DNA of 33,375 nucleotides from Spirochaetae bacterium HGW-Spirochaetae-5 (GTDB taxonomy: Bacteria > Spirochaetota > UBA4802 > UBA5550): contig PGXT01000088.1 in NCBI GenBank assembly GCA_002839285.1, positions 4,137-37,511 of the forward strand. Direction: 5' to 3'. Shown here piece after piece: positions 3,919-29,505 of this stretch. How positions within the stretch are numbered: position 1 is the first letter of the stretch; each line of letters opens with the position of its first letter. Made by a program: the position numbers and the translations under genes. The notes below the pieces were generated by a model. That model saw nothing but the letters and a program-made list of their open reading frames with translations, was not told the origin of the DNA and searched no databases.

Positions 3919-6417
3919 TCAAGCTCTGTGTGATTTTTTATTCTGCTTCTCTTTATACATTTCTCCGTCGGCTATTGTTATAAATTCATCGGCTGATAAT
4001 TTACTTCCCAGGGGATATAAAGCAAATCCGATACTCACCTCTAATGGATAAGGATGATCACCTGCATCATTTGCTTTCTTTAAACAATTTTTAATCCTTT
4101 CACGGATCATTCCCGTCTTCTCTAAATCACATCCAGGCAATACAGCAAGAAATTCGTCACCACCAAGCCTGCAAAAAGTATCAGACCCGCGGAAAACAGA
4201 AAAAAGAATTCTGCTTACATCTGTAAGAAGACGGTCCCCTTCATTGTGACCATATGTGTCATTAACACTTTTGAGTCCATCAACATCCATGAAACATATA
4301 GTTAAAGGCTTTTTTTCCCTTACGGATGATATTATACTTTTCTCAATAATAGATATACCGGCTCTGCGGTTCATGACGCCTGTGAGAACATCGGTCATTG
4401 CCATTTCTTTAAGTTTAAACTCCATCTCCTTCCTATAGGTAATATCAGTAAAATATATCGATATCCCGTCTGAATAAGGATAAAAATGAAGCATAAACCA
4501 TTTTTTAGTGTTGCTCTCGTAATGTTCCAGTTGAGAGTAAATCTGCTTTTTCATAGCCTGATCAAAATGTTCGTAAACAGAAGCAAAATATTTTCTCTTA
4601 AATACAGACTCAACATGTTTACCGATTATTTTTTCAGATTTAAGTCCCCAGATCTCCTCAGCCTGGGAATTAACATATGTAAGGATTCCATTACCGTCGA
4701 TAGCGAAGAATCCGTCATTGATACTTTCAAGTATACTGCTCAATTTATTTTTCGAATCTGACAATTCCATTTGAATAATTTTAACATCAGTTACATCCAG
4801 AATCATAACTATCAGGCCGGTTAATTTTTCATTAATATCTCTAACGGGAGCAATATTCAAAGATATATACTGTTTGTAGTTACCCTCCCTTTCGATGACA
4901 CTGTCAATATTATATAAAGGTCTACCGCTTTCTATAGCCAATGTTAAGGGCCAGCCTATGGTATTACCGGTCAGAAAAGATACTGCGGGTGTTCCTTCAA
5001 TTTTCTCCCATCTCCCTTTATTATCATTTTTTGAAAGATATAGAATAGATTCAGCAATATGATTAGCGAGGATGATACTCCCTTCAACGGTTACATATAT
5101 AACGCCCATGGGTGCATTCGCAATTATATTATTAAACAGCTCTTCATTGCGCTTAATAAAAGTAATATCAGAGCTTGCAATCGAAATAAGATCAACTTTA
5201 TTTTCATCGTCAACTATCGGGTAAATATTATTCAGCAAAATAAGGCCATTTCTTTCATCGGTAAAGCTGACCGGCATATTTGTTTCTACAACAAGATTAA
5301 TATACTCAAGTCTTTTACTCCGAACATCTTCCGGAAACAAACTGAATATATTAACTGCCTCCATACGCTTTTCGGAAAGATTGAACCTGTTTATAGCTTC
5401 AGTATTTGCATCCACAAGCAAACCGTCCGGTTTAATAATGAAAACAGCTTCGGTTATCGAATTTAATATTGATCGCAGTGTATTTTCAGAATGAATTGAT
5501 TTTTTTCTGTTGCGCCGTTCCCTGATCATTATTACAAAGAGAAGAGACAGCACTACACTGAAAAAACTCAGCGTTAGAATAATAAAAGCCTGCCTGTGCA
5601 TTTCATAATACTCGTAAATCCCCGGTTCACGATTTATAATTATACTCTCTTCAGGCAAATCTTTAATATCTATACTAAACTTTTTTAATTCGGTAAAATC
5701 AAACATATATCTGTTTGGACTTTCTAAAATTACAGGAATAGAATCCGCAAATACTCCAGATAAAATTTTCAAAGCTGATTCAGCAGCAGTTTTACCCTGA
5801 TAAAAACCGCTGATAAGTTTGCCGCCTGTTATTCCGTAGCCGAGATGAAAATCCCATAGACCATATATAGGAACATGCGTGATATTCCGGAGTCTTAAAA
5901 TAATTTCATTATAATCGTAGTAATTCTTACTTGTATCTTTTGTAAATACTGTAAAAAGCACGGCAGTATTCTCATCAGCTTCACCGGCACTTTTAAAAAT
6001 GCCGGTCATATCCCCCTTCAGGAATATGAAATCAATATTTTTATAATGAAGACCGGCTATTTCATTAATTCTGTTTTCAAATCTAATACCAACCTCAGTT
6101 GCGTCGTTTATAATCAGAATTCTGTTTATCGCCGGCTGCAGATTTAAAATAATATCTATAGTGCTTTTTATATCGGTCTGCTCATTAACACCTGTAATAT
6201 TCTTCATCCCCCGAATATCACCAGGTATGAAATTATTTATGCCGCAAAAAACCACAGGAACATCATGGAAAAGTTCATTCCTATATTTTTTCAAAAAATT
6301 CAAAGCATCATTGTCAGTACAGATAATTACATCAAAAGGATCTGAACTGTATTTGATCTTATATATTTCAGATAGATATTCAAGATACCTGTCTGAAGAT
6401 GCCCGCTTTACATCCAT
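3919..6417 (-). CDS. Diguanylate cyclase with ABC-substrate-binding-like sensor, TM, three PAS and GGDEF; N-terminus broken
   Basis: Makes c-di-GMP from GTP. Residues 1-255 match the ABC_sub_bind-type periplasmic sensor found in many kinases and cyclases (EYMDVKR, VIICTDNDALNFL, PVVFCGINNF). One membrane helix lies at 277-298. PAS domains are at about 310-420, 428-540 and 550-660, then GGDEF at about 670-830. The active loop GGDEF is residues 752-756, and RGSD exactly five residues before it is an intact inhibitory I-site, so product feedback is expected. As it stands the open frame begins inside the sensor domain without signal peptide or the usual NSYH...W..GI stretch; a signal peptide lies just upstream in another frame (see 6422-6526). 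Without repair the sensor would not be exported, so this may be a pseudogene or an assembly error. Confidence 0.88.
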   Translation of the reverse strand: MDVKRASSDRYLEYLSEIYKIKYSSDPFDVIICTDNDALNFLKKYRNELFHDVPVVFCGINNFIPGDIRGMKNITGVNEQTDIKSTIDIILNLQPAINRILIINDATEVGIRFENRINEIAGLHYKNIDFIFLKGDMTGIFKSAGEADENTAVLFTVFTKDTSKNYYDYNEIILRLRNITHVPIYGLWDFHLGYGITGGKLISGFYQGKTAAESALKILSGVFADSIPVILESPNRYMFDFTELKKFSIDIKDLPEESIIINREPGIYEYYEMHRQAFIILTLSFFSVVLSLLFVIMIRERRNRKKSIHSENTLRSILNSITEAVFIIKPDGLLVDANTEAINRFNLSEKRMEAVNIFSLFPEDVRSKRLEYINLVVETNMPVSFTDERNGLILLNNIYPIVDDENKVDLISIASSDITFIKRNEELFNNIIANAPMGVIYVTVEGSIILANHIAESILYLSKNDNKGRWEKIEGTPAVSFLTGNTIGWPLTLAIESGRPLYNIDSVIEREGNYKQYISLNIAPVRDINEKLTGLIVMILDVTDVKIIQMELSDSKNKLSSILESINDGFFAIDGNGILTYVNSQAEEIWGLKSEKIIGKHVESVFKRKYFASVYEHFDQAMKKQIYSQLEHYESNTKKWFMLHFYPYSDGISIYFTDITYRKEMEFKLKEMAMTDVLTGVMNRRAGISIIEKSIISSVREKKPLTICFMDVDGLKSVNDTYGHNEGDRLLTDVSRILFSVFRGSDTFCRLGGDEFLAVLPGCDLEKTGMIRERIKNCLKKANDAGDHPYPLEVSIGFALYPLGSKLSADEFITIADGEMYKEKQNKKSHRA

Positions 6418-17715: not shown

Positions 17716-17895
17716 CACGCCCCTATCCGCCCTGGCGGGCACCTTTCCCCATGAATGGGAGAAAGGAGTGATTCAGAACTTTTTGTATTCACCTTTCTCA
17801 GTTTATAGAGAAAGAAAAACCAGAAAACTTCCACACTCACAACTCTCCTCCCATTCATGGGGGAGATGTCGCTACTGCGACAGAGGGGGCGGTGT
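17716..17895. repeat. Palindromic element, copy 1
   Basis: Begins GCCCCTATCCGCC and ends AGAGGGGGCGG, which pair imperfectly. Between are hairpins: CCGCC/GGCGG, CCTTTC.CCCAT/ATGGG.GAAAGG, CTCCTCCCAT/ATGGGGGAG and GTCGC/GCGAC. The same units recur at 24152-24270 and 24665-24840. The right edge is within three bases of the acr3 stop codon. It has no ORF, so it is a miniature, non-coding repeat. Confidence 0.8.
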
Positions 17896-24151: not shown

Positions 24152-24270
24152 CCGCCCCTATCCGCCCTAGCGGGCACCTTTCCCCATGAATGGGAGAAAG
24201 GGGAATTCAAAATATTTCCTATACCTCTCCTCCCATTCATGGGGGAGATGGCCAGCGGCCAGAGGGGGCG
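24152..24270. repeat. Palindromic element, copy 2
   Basis: Second copy of the 17716-17895 element: GCCCCTATCCGCC start, CCTTTCCCCATGAATGGGAG, CTCCTCCCATTCATGGGGG, a GGCCAGCGGCC hairpin and AGAGGGGGCG end. It abuts the stop codon of the DGC-domain gene, at a distance of eight bases. Same orientation as copies 1 and 3; shorter than both because the spacer between the two main hairpins is reduced. Confidence 0.8.
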
Positions 24271-24664: not shown

Positions 24665-24840
24665 CCCGCCCCTATCCGCCCTACGGGCACCTTTCCCCAT
24701 GGGATGGGAGAAAGGGAAGATGAAAATTTCACACTTCTCTCCTCCCATTCATGGGGGACTAGAAACATGATGTTTCTGTGTCTAGCGCGGACACGATGTC
24801 CAAAAAGCGCCGACTGATGGCCAGAGGCCAGAGGGGCGGT
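24665..24840. repeat. Palindromic element, copy 3, with extra hairpins
   Basis: Third copy of the family, same orientation, with GCCCCTATCCGCC at one end and AGAGGGGCGG at the other. An inserted block of about 60 bases adds hairpins AAACATGATGTTT inside a CTAG/CTAG pair, and GGACACGATGTCC. It ends seven bases from the stop codon of the small thioredoxin gene. Confidence 0.8.
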
Positions 24841-25220: not shown

Positions 25221-26813
25221 TTAAAAAAAAGTTCCAAAAATCATACCGCTTATCGTTGCCATAATAACTACCAGCGTACAATAAACGATTGTCTTCTTCG
25301 GGCCGATATAACTGTTTATTACTATCATGCTCGGCAGTGAAAGTGCCGGTCCTGCAAGGAGTAGTGCGAGCGCAGGCCCCTTCCCCATTCCGCTTCCGAT
25401 TAATCCCTGAACAATCGGCACTTCAGTAAGTGTTGCAAAGTACATAAACGCACCTACAATTGAAGCAAAGAAATTTGCTGATAAAGAATTTCCACCTACA
25501 AGATCTGATACCCAAACCGCGGGTATAATCCCCTCATGCCCCGGCCTTCCGAGAAGAAACCCCGATACAAGTACGCCGCCAAGCAGAAGAGGTGTAATCT
25601 GTTTTGCAAATCCCCATGTAGAACCGAACCATTCTCCAGCTTCACCCTTGTCGGTACTTGTAACAACCGAAAGACCTATAGTACCTGCAGCAAATGCAAT
25701 TACAGGCTCATGAGGAAATATAAATCCAAGAGCAGCCGCAGGAACTACCGCAAGAGCCATCTTCCATGGTTTTACGCCATACCACAAAACAACTACAGAC
25801 GCAAAAATCACCGCTGATACTGAAGTGAAATACCACTTAAACGCGAACATAAAATGCCAGAATCCTGAACTATCCGCCGCCTTCCCCCAGTTAGCGAAAA
25901 CAAGAATTGCAACCATTGAACCGAAATAGATAATATCCTTCCATAATGGTCTTGATGCAACCGCATCAGGTATATACATCGCAGCTTTAACCTTAGCGAT
26001 CTCCTCTTTCCTGAATATAAAATGCATAATCCCGCCAATAACAACGCTGAAAAATACAGCTCCAACTGCCCGGGCAATACCTATATCCATCCCTATAACT
26101 CTTGCCGTAAGAATAATCGCAAGTACGTTGATTGCAGGCCCCGAGTAGAGAAAAGCAATTGCAGGTCCAAGCCCTGCTCCCATTCTGTATATCCCTGAAA
26201 ATAGAGGAAGCACAGTACATGAACACACAGCAAGCACTGATCCTGAAACAGACCCCACTCCATAAGCAAGCAACTTGTTGGCTTTAGGTCCCAGATATTT
26301 CATAACGGCTTCCTGTCTTACAAAAACGCCAATCGCGCCTGCAATAAAAAAAGCAGGGATAAGGCAGAGCAGAACATGCTCCTGCGCATACCATTTTGTT
26401 AAATATAAAGCTTCAAAGACCGCGTTATCAAACCGGTCTGTCCCCACAGGCATATAATACAGGGCAAGAAAAAATCCCCCGATTATCGCAAGTGGTTTCC
26501 ATTCCTCTAAATGTTTATTTGTATTACTTTCAATAACATCCTCAATACACCCGATAAAATCAAGAATACATGGACAGAGCAGTGTGTAATAAATTGCTGT
26601 ACCTTTTCTTGTGTCAGAGACAATTCCGGCATTTTTTAACACGCTCAGATGCTTTGAAACAGTGGATGTGTCAGCACCGATCATATCCGTAAGTTCACCT
26701 ACGCACCGGTCCTGTTTTTTCAGCTCATCAATGATAAGGAGCCTGCTTGGATGAGCCATGGCTTTAATAATTGATGCCCTTGCTTCATAAGCCTGTAATT
26801 TTGGATTATTCAT
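25221..26813 (-). CDS. ArsR-type repressor fused to an ArsP/DUF318-like permease
   Basis: A 530-residue fusion counted from the ATG at 26813, chosen over the TTG at 26819 because AAAGG lies seven bases from the ATG. Residues 1-95 are an ArsR winged helix (VSKHLSVLKNAGIVSDTRKG), with C80, C82 and C89 (LLCPCILDFIGC) as likely metal site. Residues 96-105 form a short linker and 106-530 a multi-helix permease with VCSCTVLPLF (C197/C199) and LYSGPAINVLAIILTARV. Relatives of the permease export trivalent organoarsenicals or other metals. A regulator tied to its own transporter would be membrane-bound and would need DNA near the membrane. The separate genes are usual, so fusion could also be a joined deletion; no frame break is seen. 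Confidence 0.85.
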   Translation of the reverse strand: MNNPKLQAYEARASIIKAMAHPSRLLIIDELKKQDRCVGELTDMIGADTSTVSKHLSVLKNAGIVSDTRKGTAIYYTLLCPCILDFIGCIEDVIESNTNKHLEEWKPLAIIGGFFLALYYMPVGTDRFDNAVFEALYLTKWYAQEHVLLCLIPAFFIAGAIGVFVRQEAVMKYLGPKANKLLAYGVGSVSGSVLAVCSCTVLPLFSGIYRMGAGLGPAIAFLYSGPAINVLAIILTARVIGMDIGIARAVGAVFFSVVIGGIMHFIFRKEEIAKVKAAMYIPDAVASRPLWKDIIYFGSMVAILVFANWGKAADSSGFWHFMFAFKWYFTSVSAVIFASVVVLWYGVKPWKMALAVVPAAALGFIFPHEPVIAFAAGTIGLSVVTSTDKGEAGEWFGSTWGFAKQITPLLLGGVLVSGFLLGRPGHEGIIPAVWVSDLVGGNSLSANFFASIVGAFMYFATLTEVPIVQGLIGSGMGKGPALALLLAGPALSLPSMIVINSYIGPKKTIVYCTLVVIMATISGMIFGTFF

Positions 26814-26834
26814 ATTCAACCTTTCTTATTTTGC

Positions 26835-26863: not shown

Positions 26864-26887
26864 GTATTTAATTTGTTATGCGTCAAA

Positions 26888-27003
26888 AGGTCGTGGTTTA
26901 TTTTTGGGGGCGCAGCGCTTCGCGCTGCGCCTGAGATGGGGGATTACGGGGGCAGCGCCCCCGTAATCCCCCATCCGGGCGTATGCGGAGCATACGCACC
27001 CCG
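26888..27003. repeat. Three-hairpin GC-rich cassette, copy 1
   Basis: Starts GTGGTTTATTTTTGGGGGC. Three perfect hairpins follow: GGCGCAGCGC-TTC-GCGCTGCGCC, a 16-pair stem GGGGGATTACGGGGGC with loop AGC, and GCGTATGC-GGA-GCATACGC. It ends about 11 bases from the methyltransferase remnant stop codon at 27015. No coding capacity is evident. The second copy is at 29360-29505. Confidence 0.85.
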
Positions 27004-27014
27004 AAAATAATTTA

Positions 27015-27389
27015 CTACCCGTCAAAAACTATGAGCTCTTTAGTAATTGTTAAAGCGGAAAAATTAAAATTTTTCTCAATCCATTTCAATGTATCCGTGT
27101 GATAGAAAAAAAGATGAGTAAAATCATCTTTATACTTCCATTTTTCAAAATTAATATCATAATTGAAAATTGATGTTTTACAGAATAATTTCCCCTTAGG
27201 ATTCAGAAGTGATTTCAGAAGTTTAAACTCTTTATGAGGATTTACAAAATGTTCTATAACTTCGCAGGCGACAATATAATCGTAAGTCTCTTCAAGTCTT
27301 TCCGGTTCATTCCAGAAAAAAGGATCATAAAGCTTAATATTATAACCGCTGTCGCGTAAAAGTTTTGTTATGACAGGTCCGGGACCTGC
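27015..27389 (-). pseudogene. SAM-dependent methyltransferase, C-terminal part
   Basis: Open frame from GCA at 27389 to TAG at 27015-27017, with no start codon of its own at the beginning. It reads AGPGPVITKLLRDSGYNIKL, the glycine-rich SAM loop, then YDPFFWNEPE, YDYIVACEVIEHF and PKGKLFCKTS, all typical of class I methyltransferases. It continues the 27340-27591 gene in another frame. About 30 residues expected before the GPG loop are missing. Without them the SAM site is broken. Confidence 0.85.
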
Positions 27390-27591
27390 TCACATCGTTA
27401 TTATGTGCAAGATATCTTTTTTTCTCATCCTCAGGTGAAGGATAATAATCGGGATGGAGTACTACAGCTCTGCAGTGAACACAGCTGTAGTACTTTCTTT
27501 CTCTATATGTTTCGAACAAAAAAGCATCTTCACCACAGAGCGTACATTTCATTTTCATACAAAGGAACGGTTCCCCTTTTCTAAACCTCAA
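27340..27591 (-). pseudogene. SAM-dependent methyltransferase, N-terminal part
   Basis: Starts probably at ATG 27558 (MKMKCTLCGED), 22 bases after the RNase J stop. It has the zinc-ribbon pair CTLCG and CVHC and the family sequence VVLHPDYYPSPEDEKKRYLAHNNDV. The next residues (SRSRTCHNK) are out of frame, and the correct frame resumes in the 27015-27389 piece. The junction lies at about 27385-27392. The intact protein would be a small class I methyltransferase of unknown substrate. Confidence 0.85.
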
Positions 27592-29248
27592 TCACGTTTA
27601 TAACGATTGGAGGATTCCTTCGAATCAGTTTAAAAATGTAATTCGAAATACTTCTTTTAAGAAGAGATTCAATCTCAGCTGCATCTTTCCCTTCTTTGAG
27701 CATTTTCTGAAGTTTATCTTCTATATCCTTTAACAAAAGCCCGTGTGTTTTCGTATTCTCAACATTGATAAAACCCCGGGTCTCTATATCGGGTCCGCTT
27801 AAAATTTTACCTTTTGAAATCACCATTGAAGCGCAGAAAACACCCTCAGTCGACATGAGATGCCGCTCTTTTATGACATCACTGGCTATGTCGCCAATCT
27901 CCGCGCCGTCAACATACATCTCAAGAAGCGGTATTGTACCGGTTTTCTTAAAAGACTTTTTCGTTAGTTCAAGAACATCACCGTTTTTTGCTATAATAAT
28001 ATGCGAAGGTTTTACATTCAAAGATTCAGCAATCTCGGCGTGTCTTTTTAAATGTTTATACTCCCCATGTACAGGGACAAAAAATCTGGGCTTTGTAATT
28101 GATATCATCACCTTCAGCTCTTTTGAAGCTCCATGTCCCGAAACGTGGATATTCTCATTCTTGTCGTAATAGACATCGGCTCCTATCTCCATAAGTGCAT
28201 TGACAATATTTGTCACCATCCGCTCATTTCCCGGAATTATCGAAGCTGTAATTATTACCGTATCACCCTTTTCAACTGCAAAATTACGGTGAGTACCGAA
28301 TGCCATTCTTGCAAGGGCCGACATGGGCTCACCCTGAGTTCCTGTGCCGATGATAACAATTTTTTTATTTGGATATTTACCGGCATCCTCAACTTTAATT
28401 ATAAGGTCCTCTTTAATATCAAGAAAACCAAGATTATTTGCAATCTCAATATTCTTCTGCATTGATAAACCTGAAATTACAACCTTCTTGTTGAACTTCT
28501 GGGCTGTGTCAAGCACCTGCTGAATTCTCTCAAGATTTGAAGCAAATGAAGCAACAATAATCCGCCCTTTTGAATCCGAAAAAATATCAGAAAGTCTGTC
28601 AAAAATTCCAGATTCAGATTTTGTGAATCCCTCTTTCTCCGAGTTTGTACTGTCAGAAAGAAGAAGCTGTACACCCTTCTCTCCATGATGAGAGAATCTG
28701 TAAATATCGGTAACCTCACCTTCAATAGGACTAAAATCTATTTTAAAGTCCCCGGTATGTATAATCGTCCCTGCCACAGTCTGAATTGCAAGGCCCACGC
28801 CTCCGATAATTGAGTGATTAACATTTATAAATTCGATAATATAGCTTCCGATATTCACAACCTGCCTTGGAACTACTTCAATAAACTGCGGAGTATATGT
28901 AAGGGGTTTCTCTATAAGTCTGCTCTGGATGAGTCCGATGGTAAGCTTTGTTGCATAAATGGGGATACTCACCTCCTGAAGCAGAAAAGCGATAGCGCCG
29001 ATATGATCCTCATGTCCGTGTGTAACTACAATTGCCTTTACCTTTGATTTGTTCTTTCTGATGTATGAAAAATCGGGGATGATATAATCGATTCCTGGCA
29101 TCTCTTCCCGTGGGAACATTATCCCGCAGTCTACGATAATAATCTCGTCTTTCTGTTCAAACAGAGTGCAGTTTTTCCCGATTGCCCCGAGGCCGCCAAG
29201 CGGTATAATCTTTACTTTGTCCGATTCTCTTGAATTGTTTTCTTTCAT
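27581..29248 (-). CDS. rnj: Ribonuclease J
   Basis: Metallo-beta-lactamase/beta-CASP exo- and endoribonuclease of 555 residues, normal length. The metal site is HGHEDHIGAI (H77, H79, D81, H82), HTGDFKID and LSDSTN, and the C-terminal beta-CASP motif is VSGHGASKEL. It takes part in 5'-3' mRNA decay and RNA processing. The ATG at 29248 is unusual: an AGGAGG lies 19 bases away, across a 6-base-pair hairpin (see 29249-29276). The stop is 22 bases from the methyltransferase ATG, so the two may form one transcript. Confidence 0.95.
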   Translation of the reverse strand: MKENNSRESDKVKIIPLGGLGAIGKNCTLFEQKDEIIIVDCGIMFPREEMPGIDYIIPDFSYIRKNKSKVKAIVVTHGHEDHIGAIAFLLQEVSIPIYATKLTIGLIQSRLIEKPLTYTPQFIEVVPRQVVNIGSYIIEFINVNHSIIGGVGLAIQTVAGTIIHTGDFKIDFSPIEGEVTDIYRFSHHGEKGVQLLLSDSTNSEKEGFTKSESGIFDRLSDIFSDSKGRIIVASFASNLERIQQVLDTAQKFNKKVVISGLSMQKNIEIANNLGFLDIKEDLIIKVEDAGKYPNKKIVIIGTGTQGEPMSALARMAFGTHRNFAVEKGDTVIITASIIPGNERMVTNIVNALMEIGADVYYDKNENIHVSGHGASKELKVMISITKPRFFVPVHGEYKHLKRHAEIAESLNVKPSHIIIAKNGDVLELTKKSFKKTGTIPLLEMYVDGAEIGDIASDVIKERHLMSTEGVFCASMVISKGKILSGPDIETRGFINVENTKTHGLLLKDIEDKLQKMLKEGKDAAEIESLLKRSISNYIFKLIRRNPPIVINVIEV

Positions 29249-29276
29249 AATTCCGGGGTATCCGGAACCTCCTTTT
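29249..29276 (-). promoter_or_regulatory. Structured ribosome site of RNase J
   Basis: On the minus strand AAAAGGAGG is followed by TTCCGG-ATACC-CCGGAA and then TT-ATG. Folding the perfect six-pair stem with a five-base loop brings AGGAGG within about two bases of the start. An in-frame TAA upstream rules out a nearer start. Such hairpin-bridged spacers are known from phage T4 genes. Confidence 0.6.
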
Positions 29277-29359
29277 TACTCTCTTTTATATTATATTAAA
29301 GGTTTAATTCATGGCTGTATGTGTCAAGCAGGTTAATATTTTTTAATCAGATTGAAAAC

Positions 29360-29505
29360 AGGTGGCGGTTTATTTATGGGGGCACAGCGCTTCGCGATGC
29401 GCCTGAAATAGGGGATTACGGGGGCAGCGCCCCCGTAATCCCCCACTCCCAGCGTATGCGGAGCATACGCACCCCGGCTGCTGCCGCGAGCCGGGGTGCG
29501 TTTCG
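29360..29505. repeat. Three-hairpin GC-rich cassette, copy 2, with a fourth hairpin
   Basis: Matches 26888-27003: GTGGCGGTTTATTTATGGGGGC, the first hairpin now imperfect (GGCACAGCGC-TTC-GCGATGCGCC), the same perfect 16-pair GGGGGATTACGGGGGC stem and GCGTATGC-GGA-GCATACGC. An extra hairpin (CACCCCGGCT with AGCCGGGGTG) follows. It ends within about three bases of the glgP stop codon and could terminate that gene. Confidence 0.85.

Follow-up and report, generated by a model that had tools for sequence, protein, structure and literature searches.

Two hairpin cassettes flanking an RNase J gene in a spirochaete belong to a new MITE family whose stems have very likely been re-copied by DNA template switching

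The window analysed here is a stretch of 33,375 nucleotides from Spirochaetae bacterium HGW-Spirochaetae-5 (contig PGXT01000088.1, forward strand, positions 4,137 to 37,511). It carries an RNase J gene with a multi-hairpin cassette on either side, and the features of this locus are as follows, in window coordinates.

27581-29248, minus strand: RNase J gene between the two copies, a bystander (Pfam PF22505, PF17770, PF00753, PF07521)
26881-26888, no strand: left target-site duplication of copy 1, CGTCAAAA, exact 8-bp direct repeat adjoining the element end
26889-27019, plus strand: copy 1, full-length element (MITE long form), covariance-model match G000:C130:31025-31155, 136 bits, E 1e-33
26889-26910, plus strand: left terminal inverted repeat of copy 1 (37-copy alignment and sequence reading)
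26909-26931, plus strand: hairpin 1 of copy 1, 10 perfect pairs, loop TTC (GAA on the other strand)
26935-26975, plus strand: hairpin 2 (central stem) of copy 1, 19 perfect pairs, loop AGC
26979-26997, plus strand: hairpin 3 of copy 1, 8 perfect pairs, loop GGA
26998-27019, plus strand: right terminal inverted repeat of copy 1 (37-copy alignment and sequence reading)
27020-27027, no strand: right target-site duplication of copy 1, CGTCAAAA, exact 8-bp direct repeat adjoining the element end
29361-29485, plus strand: copy 2, right end decayed, covariance-model match G000:C130:33497-33621, 102.6 bits
29381-29403, plus strand: hairpin 1 of copy 2, mismatched (sequence reading)
29411-29443, plus strand: hairpin 2 of copy 2, 15 perfect pairs, loop AGC (sequence reading)
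29452-29470, plus strand: hairpin 3 of copy 2, same sequence as in copy 1 (sequence reading)
29467-29501, plus strand: fourth hairpin of copy 2, 13 pairs, 9-nt loop, overlapping the decayed right end and adjoining the glgP stop codon

That the cassettes are two related copies, as an earlier note on this DNA had proposed, was confirmed by alignment (26885-27003 against 29357-29476, 91% identity over 89 nt and 89% over 36 nt) and by single-strand folding, which gave z scores of -11.2 for copy 1 and -6.1 for copy 2, with none of 200 shuffles equally stable in either case. The central stem and the third hairpin had both been described as identical in the two copies; this holds for the third hairpin, but the central stem has 19 perfect pairs in copy 1 (arms 26935-26953 and 26957-26975) and 15 in copy 2 (arms 29411-29425 and 29429-29443), in which the next outward pair is now A.C. 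The reported divergence of the first hairpin in copy 2 is visible as mismatches. The fourth hairpin of copy 2 (arms 29467-29479 and 29489-29501) exists, but it looks like a product of right-end decay rather than the added module previously suggested, because it lies at the decayed right inverted repeat, beside the glgP stop codon. No recognisable target duplication was found in the flanks of copy 2.

The Pfam domains of the gene between the copies agree with its identification as RNase J. A broken coding sequence is also present there, as the minus-strand frame at 27020-27591 is interrupted before RNase J (longest piece 83 aa), and it is consistent with the putative broken methyltransferase reported previously. 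Elsewhere in the window, an ArsR-type regulator domain and an ArsP-type permease are encoded in a single reading frame (25221-26819), and a second interspersed repeat family, with the palindromes CCCCTATCCGCCC and CCATTCATGGGGGA, occupies 17718-17864, 24153-24267 and 24667-24836 and has at least one further copy (L131).

The cassette is a dispersed repeat, and the outcome that the earlier note had named as its refutation, a genome with no other copies, did not occur. A covariance model built from 37 copies was used to search the window's own genome (4.71 Mb, 309 contigs) and gave 150 matches, corresponding to at least 147 places at E<=0.01, a lower bound because 150 of 2042 candidates were scored; one place (C236:2-66) was dropped from later lists, so that the genome-wide search for further copies that the earlier note had proposed leaves at least 146. 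The full-length element is about 132 bp long, with three GC-rich hairpins and no transposase gene inside, and its mean GC content is 56%, against 33% in the flanks. Shortened copies of about 60-68 nt, which retain both ends and one small hairpin, number roughly 38 (44 table rows, from which five were subtracted because a place had been read twice, and a further one or two as non-elements). Among relatives, no copy was found in 58 genomes by DNA search or in 97 by model search with stricter filters, the only same-genus genome among them being 73% complete.

The ends of the element are those of a transposon. They form imperfect terminal inverted repeats of about 22 bp (GGTAGC...GCTACC) with a consensus match at 18 of 22 positions and, reading inward from each end, GGTAGC-NNN-TTATTTT-N-GGGG(G) is followed by a hairpin with a 3-nt loop, the long central hairpin lying between the two. 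A search of the genome with the terminal pattern returned 195 sites against 7 for a reversed-pattern control, and a second terminal pattern 154 against none; the comparison of model with pattern took in 100 of the 195 end sites. Staggered cutting by a transposase leaves target duplications behind, and duplications of 8 or 9 bp that differ at no more than one position adjoin 36 of the 131 testable copies, against about 0.4 by shuffling (15 of the 146 copies, shorter than 120 nt, were left out). Eighteen of these are exact (nine of 8 bp and nine of 9 bp, window copy 1 among them) and 18 have one mismatch, against 0.135 and 0.29, respectively, when right flanks were shuffled among copies; short forms have an exact duplication at nine places. 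At C295:12194 and C294:72012, a separate palindromic repeat is split by a copy of the element bordered by an exact 9-bp duplication; removal of the element and one duplicate restores a match to uninterrupted copies of that repeat elsewhere, which thus serve as paralogous empty sites. The two window cassettes are members of one family of non-autonomous DNA transposons (MITEs), and this family is new. Two other observations concern insertion sites. The short palindromic repeat ATTATCCCCGCCGCC...GGCGGCGGGGATAATAGA, which is frequent in L009, L180, L202, L244 and other stretches, is the landing site for at least two element copies. In L144 (C203, 5784-5793), two element-type ends stand back to back across 8 bp, as if sharing one target, the left one having no recognisable element body.

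The gene that mobilises the family was sought through the end sites and through transposase families. Reading of the end sites that lack a near partner led to no transposase among the matches listed (about 100 each of 195, 154 and 184); an autonomous copy may lie among the end sites outside those listed. Four candidate transposase families were chosen from generally known duplication lengths: in the 309-contig draft assembly, no member of the IS1, IS256 or IS1595 families (PF12762, PF00872 and PF03400) was found, and the two genes with PF01609 (DDE_Tnp_1), both near contig starts, have no element-type end in the sequence read beside them. The earlier note had raised a link with a nearby REP-associated tyrosine transposase (RAYT), by which the element would be of REP/REPIN type and would be moved by a Y1 transposase acting on single-stranded hairpins. 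The genome does contain eight Y1_Tnp loci, and the ends of the element contain GTAG, as REPs do in the parts of PMC3733652 and PMC8266576 that bear on this point. The element is, however, 132 nt long with three hairpins, as against a tagged palindrome of 20-50 nt, and only one of the eight loci has a copy within the stretch taken around it, one copy in ten stretches (48 kb, eight of them Y1 loci) being about the chance level by copy density. We know of no target duplications made by the Y1 class, and this element makes duplications of 8-9 bp; the Y1 genes are, moreover, flanked by GGTCAGA-like repeats of another kind. The RAYT reading was rejected on the target duplications and the lack of association between copies and Y1 genes, and we regard it as extremely improbable. 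The short repeats resembling GGTCAGA and GGTCTGGC beside several of the RAYT-like genes (L163-L170) form a separate system.

Near-perfect stems beside an RNase J gene had led the earlier note to raise autoregulated processing, with chance adjacency as the alternative; this is a special case of the more general explanation that the stems are held by selection on RNA structure, as attenuators, processing sites or terminators. The very stable folding would suit such a role, as would the covariation described below, and RNases can cut MITE transcripts, according to the text available from PMC10969869. The placement of the family argues against it. On a rough gene context taken from open reading frames of at least 90 aa rather than from a gene caller, 24 copies in tandem contexts lie on the same strand as the flanking genes and 26 on the opposite strand, so no orientation bias is seen, and divergent gaps are favoured and convergent ones avoided (71 divergent, 51 tandem and 4 convergent copies, against 51, 62 and 13 expected by gap length). 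By the same gene context, an overlap of more than 60 nt with an open reading frame was seen for 10 of 137 copies. The family is scattered through the genome, and no Rfam match at the gathering score was found over the window. The pair of copies around RNase J is itself unremarkable, since 11 of the 66 gaps between same-contig neighbours of the family are of 2.5 kb or less. Autoregulation of RNase J was thus rejected, on the even orientation and the family-wide spread over many other intergenic sites, and selection on RNA structure in general seems to us very unlikely.

The stems themselves carry a record of change on both arms. Across 115 copies, two-sided Watson-Crick cells number 54 in the inner 16 pairs of the central stem, against about 6 expected from column make-up (16 of the 131 copies, with arms matching the consensus poorly, were left out). 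These changes are of 25 distinct types over 17 pairs, 12 of them private to one copy and 14 of transversion type, which cannot pass through G.T. The ratio of observed to expected two-sided changes is 7.4, 4.4 and 7.2 in the three hairpins and 1.4 in the distant terminal repeats, as expected if the arms must lie close together. With increasing divergence elsewhere in the element, perfect stems become fewer, with 23 among the 29 copies of the lowest quarter and 11 among the 29 of the highest, and two-sided changes per copy rise from 0.14 to 0.97; the stems therefore decay, yet corrected changes also accumulate. In a symmetric count, G.T and A.C mispairs of the central stem are about equally frequent (39 against 36 in the inner 16 pairs, 69 against 77 in 22 pairs), with no G.U preference. 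This is an argument against selection acting on a single RNA strand, though not a firm one, as a gapped alignment disagrees (136 G.U against 90 A.C cells).

The loop of the central hairpin provides a second record. Copies were oriented by their ends, so that loops of opposite sense represent inversions of the hairpin tip, and the reverse-complement partner is present for 20 of the 23 types of 3-nt loop, against a mean of 8.0 and a maximum of 18 in 100,000 draws from a null of random triplets, which is crude given that loop types are related by descent. The pairs include AGC (43 copies) and GCT (6), AAC (13) and GTT (12), TGC (5) and GCA (1), TAC (2) and GTA (2), ACC (2) and GGT (2), and others. 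On a copy tree built without the loop (103 of the 115 copies of the stem count, 130 nt and weakly resolved), loop orientation changes 16 times, against 18.7 when shuffled, and the flipped forms are scattered rather than clustered; copy pairs only 3% apart elsewhere can have opposite loops, with all three loop bases differing. Pairing in RNA leaves such inverted loops unexplained. They are what has been described for template switching, which makes the arms alike and inverts the spacer, the inversion being favoured by long arms, in the sections of PMC8604942 dealing with it, and inverted loops are predicted in stems maintained by this process in the corresponding part of PMC8794818. Ectopic gene conversion between oppositely oriented copies, whose palindromes could pair either way round, might also yield both the two-sided changes and the flipped loops, and the genome offers many similar copies in both orientations. 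It is nevertheless an unlikely source of the pattern as a whole, given that 12 of the 25 two-sided types are confined to one copy each, so that no donor copy is known for them, and that the long terminal repeats do not co-vary; it may have helped to spread loop variants such as GTT.

Hairpins 1 and 3 behave differently. Inverted loops were found in one of 85 copies for hairpin 1 and one of 93 for hairpin 3 (TNC and GNA classes), and this near-absence of flipping points to something beyond blind template switching, either the shorter arms or selection on the loop. On the outward strand, the loop is GNA in 84 of the 98 copies read for hairpin 1 and 92 of the 103 read for hairpin 3 (both out of 131), and single-position changes fall far most often on the middle base (1/19/5 over the three positions in hairpin 1 and 4/40/0 in hairpin 3). 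A GNA-capped mini-hairpin thus stands about 20 nt inside each end, on the strand whose 3' end is the element terminus. Triloops of the GNA type are known to form very stable DNA mini-hairpins when a C-G pair closes them (Yoshizawa 1997 and Hirao 1994, as cited in the relevant lines of PMC6479982). Hairpins 1 and 3 may therefore matter as DNA for mobility, or two old subfamilies may simply differ at the middle base. The broader proposal that the hairpins are needed as DNA structures for transposition, with selection on source copies keeping the arms matched, gains from the G and A retained on one strand of the subterminal loops while the middle base varies, from the stability of such triloops reported in that same excerpt and from the retention of one small hairpin by the short forms. 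We consider it conceivable, if rather doubtful, given that it leaves the loop inversion of the central stem unexplained and that the excess at the middle base may reflect two old subfamilies (GGA and GAA). A narrower form, in which the subterminal hairpins are working transposon parts and a putative transposase with a stagger of 8-9 bp reads the end together with the folded hairpin, is speculative and has little probability in our judgement; if true, it would describe a target-duplicating transposon with structure-dependent ends.

The reading that we prefer, and consider very likely, is that the cassettes are MITE insertions moved in trans, in which the hairpin arms have been re-copied and the central loop inverted by DNA template switching. 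A transposase that cuts and joins double-stranded DNA with a stagger of 8 or 9 bp would recognise the terminal repeats of about 22 bp and, acting in trans, insert the element at mostly intergenic sites, with duplication of the target; the ends, duplications, paralogous empty sites and copy number are observed, and it is from these that we infer the enzyme. Closely spaced arms would then be re-copied repeatedly from each other, after insertion or already in source copies: switching within a strand would equalise the arms and produce two-sided Watson-Crick changes, and switching between strands would invert the 3-nt loop of the long central stem. Here, the two-sided changes and inverted loops are the observations, and the replication mechanism is the one that would account for them. 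If arms are re-copied in this way, near-perfect stems need neither an RNA function nor a link to RNase J.

Two-sided changes in a stem are normally taken as proof of a selected structure. In this family, such changes are seen in well over 100 replicate hairpins, most of which are probably functionless, and they are accompanied by flipped loops, a feature that selection for pairing leaves unexplained. The family makes it possible to test directly to what extent template switching of DNA can by itself give rise to perfect stems in bacteria and preserve them, and it carries a warning that covariation in repeated elements is not to be read as RNA function. Of most interest to us is how cleanly arm correction and loop inversion are recorded over many copies, a record that bears on how perfect hairpins arise. 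The component phenomena are already known; the family itself is new and forms an unusually clear set of replicates. A literature search found no publication joining bacterial MITEs with template switching or loop inversion.

Known prokaryotic MITEs, such as ERIC, Correia/NEMIS, Chunjie and QMITE, are likewise shorter than 500 bp and geneless, have terminal inverted repeats and target duplications that become less distinct as insertions age, number tens to hundreds of copies, most of them intergenic, and include truncated forms, as far as the consulted parts of PMC10969869 describe them; that account gives MITEs as typically AT-rich, whereas this element is GC-rich (56%). It also differs from them in its three separate internal hairpins, its 8-9 bp duplications and the lack of any detected copy in 97 relatives. 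With REP/REPIN sequences and their RAYTs it shares GTAG at the ends, hairpins, a high copy number and an intergenic location, but, unlike them, it makes target duplications, is unattached to the Y1 genes of its genome and is much longer. The likeness to template-switch or quasipalindrome mutation, to judge from the same portions of PMC8604942 and PMC8794818, extends to the homogenisation of arms, the inversion of loops, the preference for long arms and the occurrence of transversions. The cases treated there are rRNA stems and yeast coding genes, whereas here more than 100 dispersed copies within one bacterium carry a loop that is largely unconstrained.
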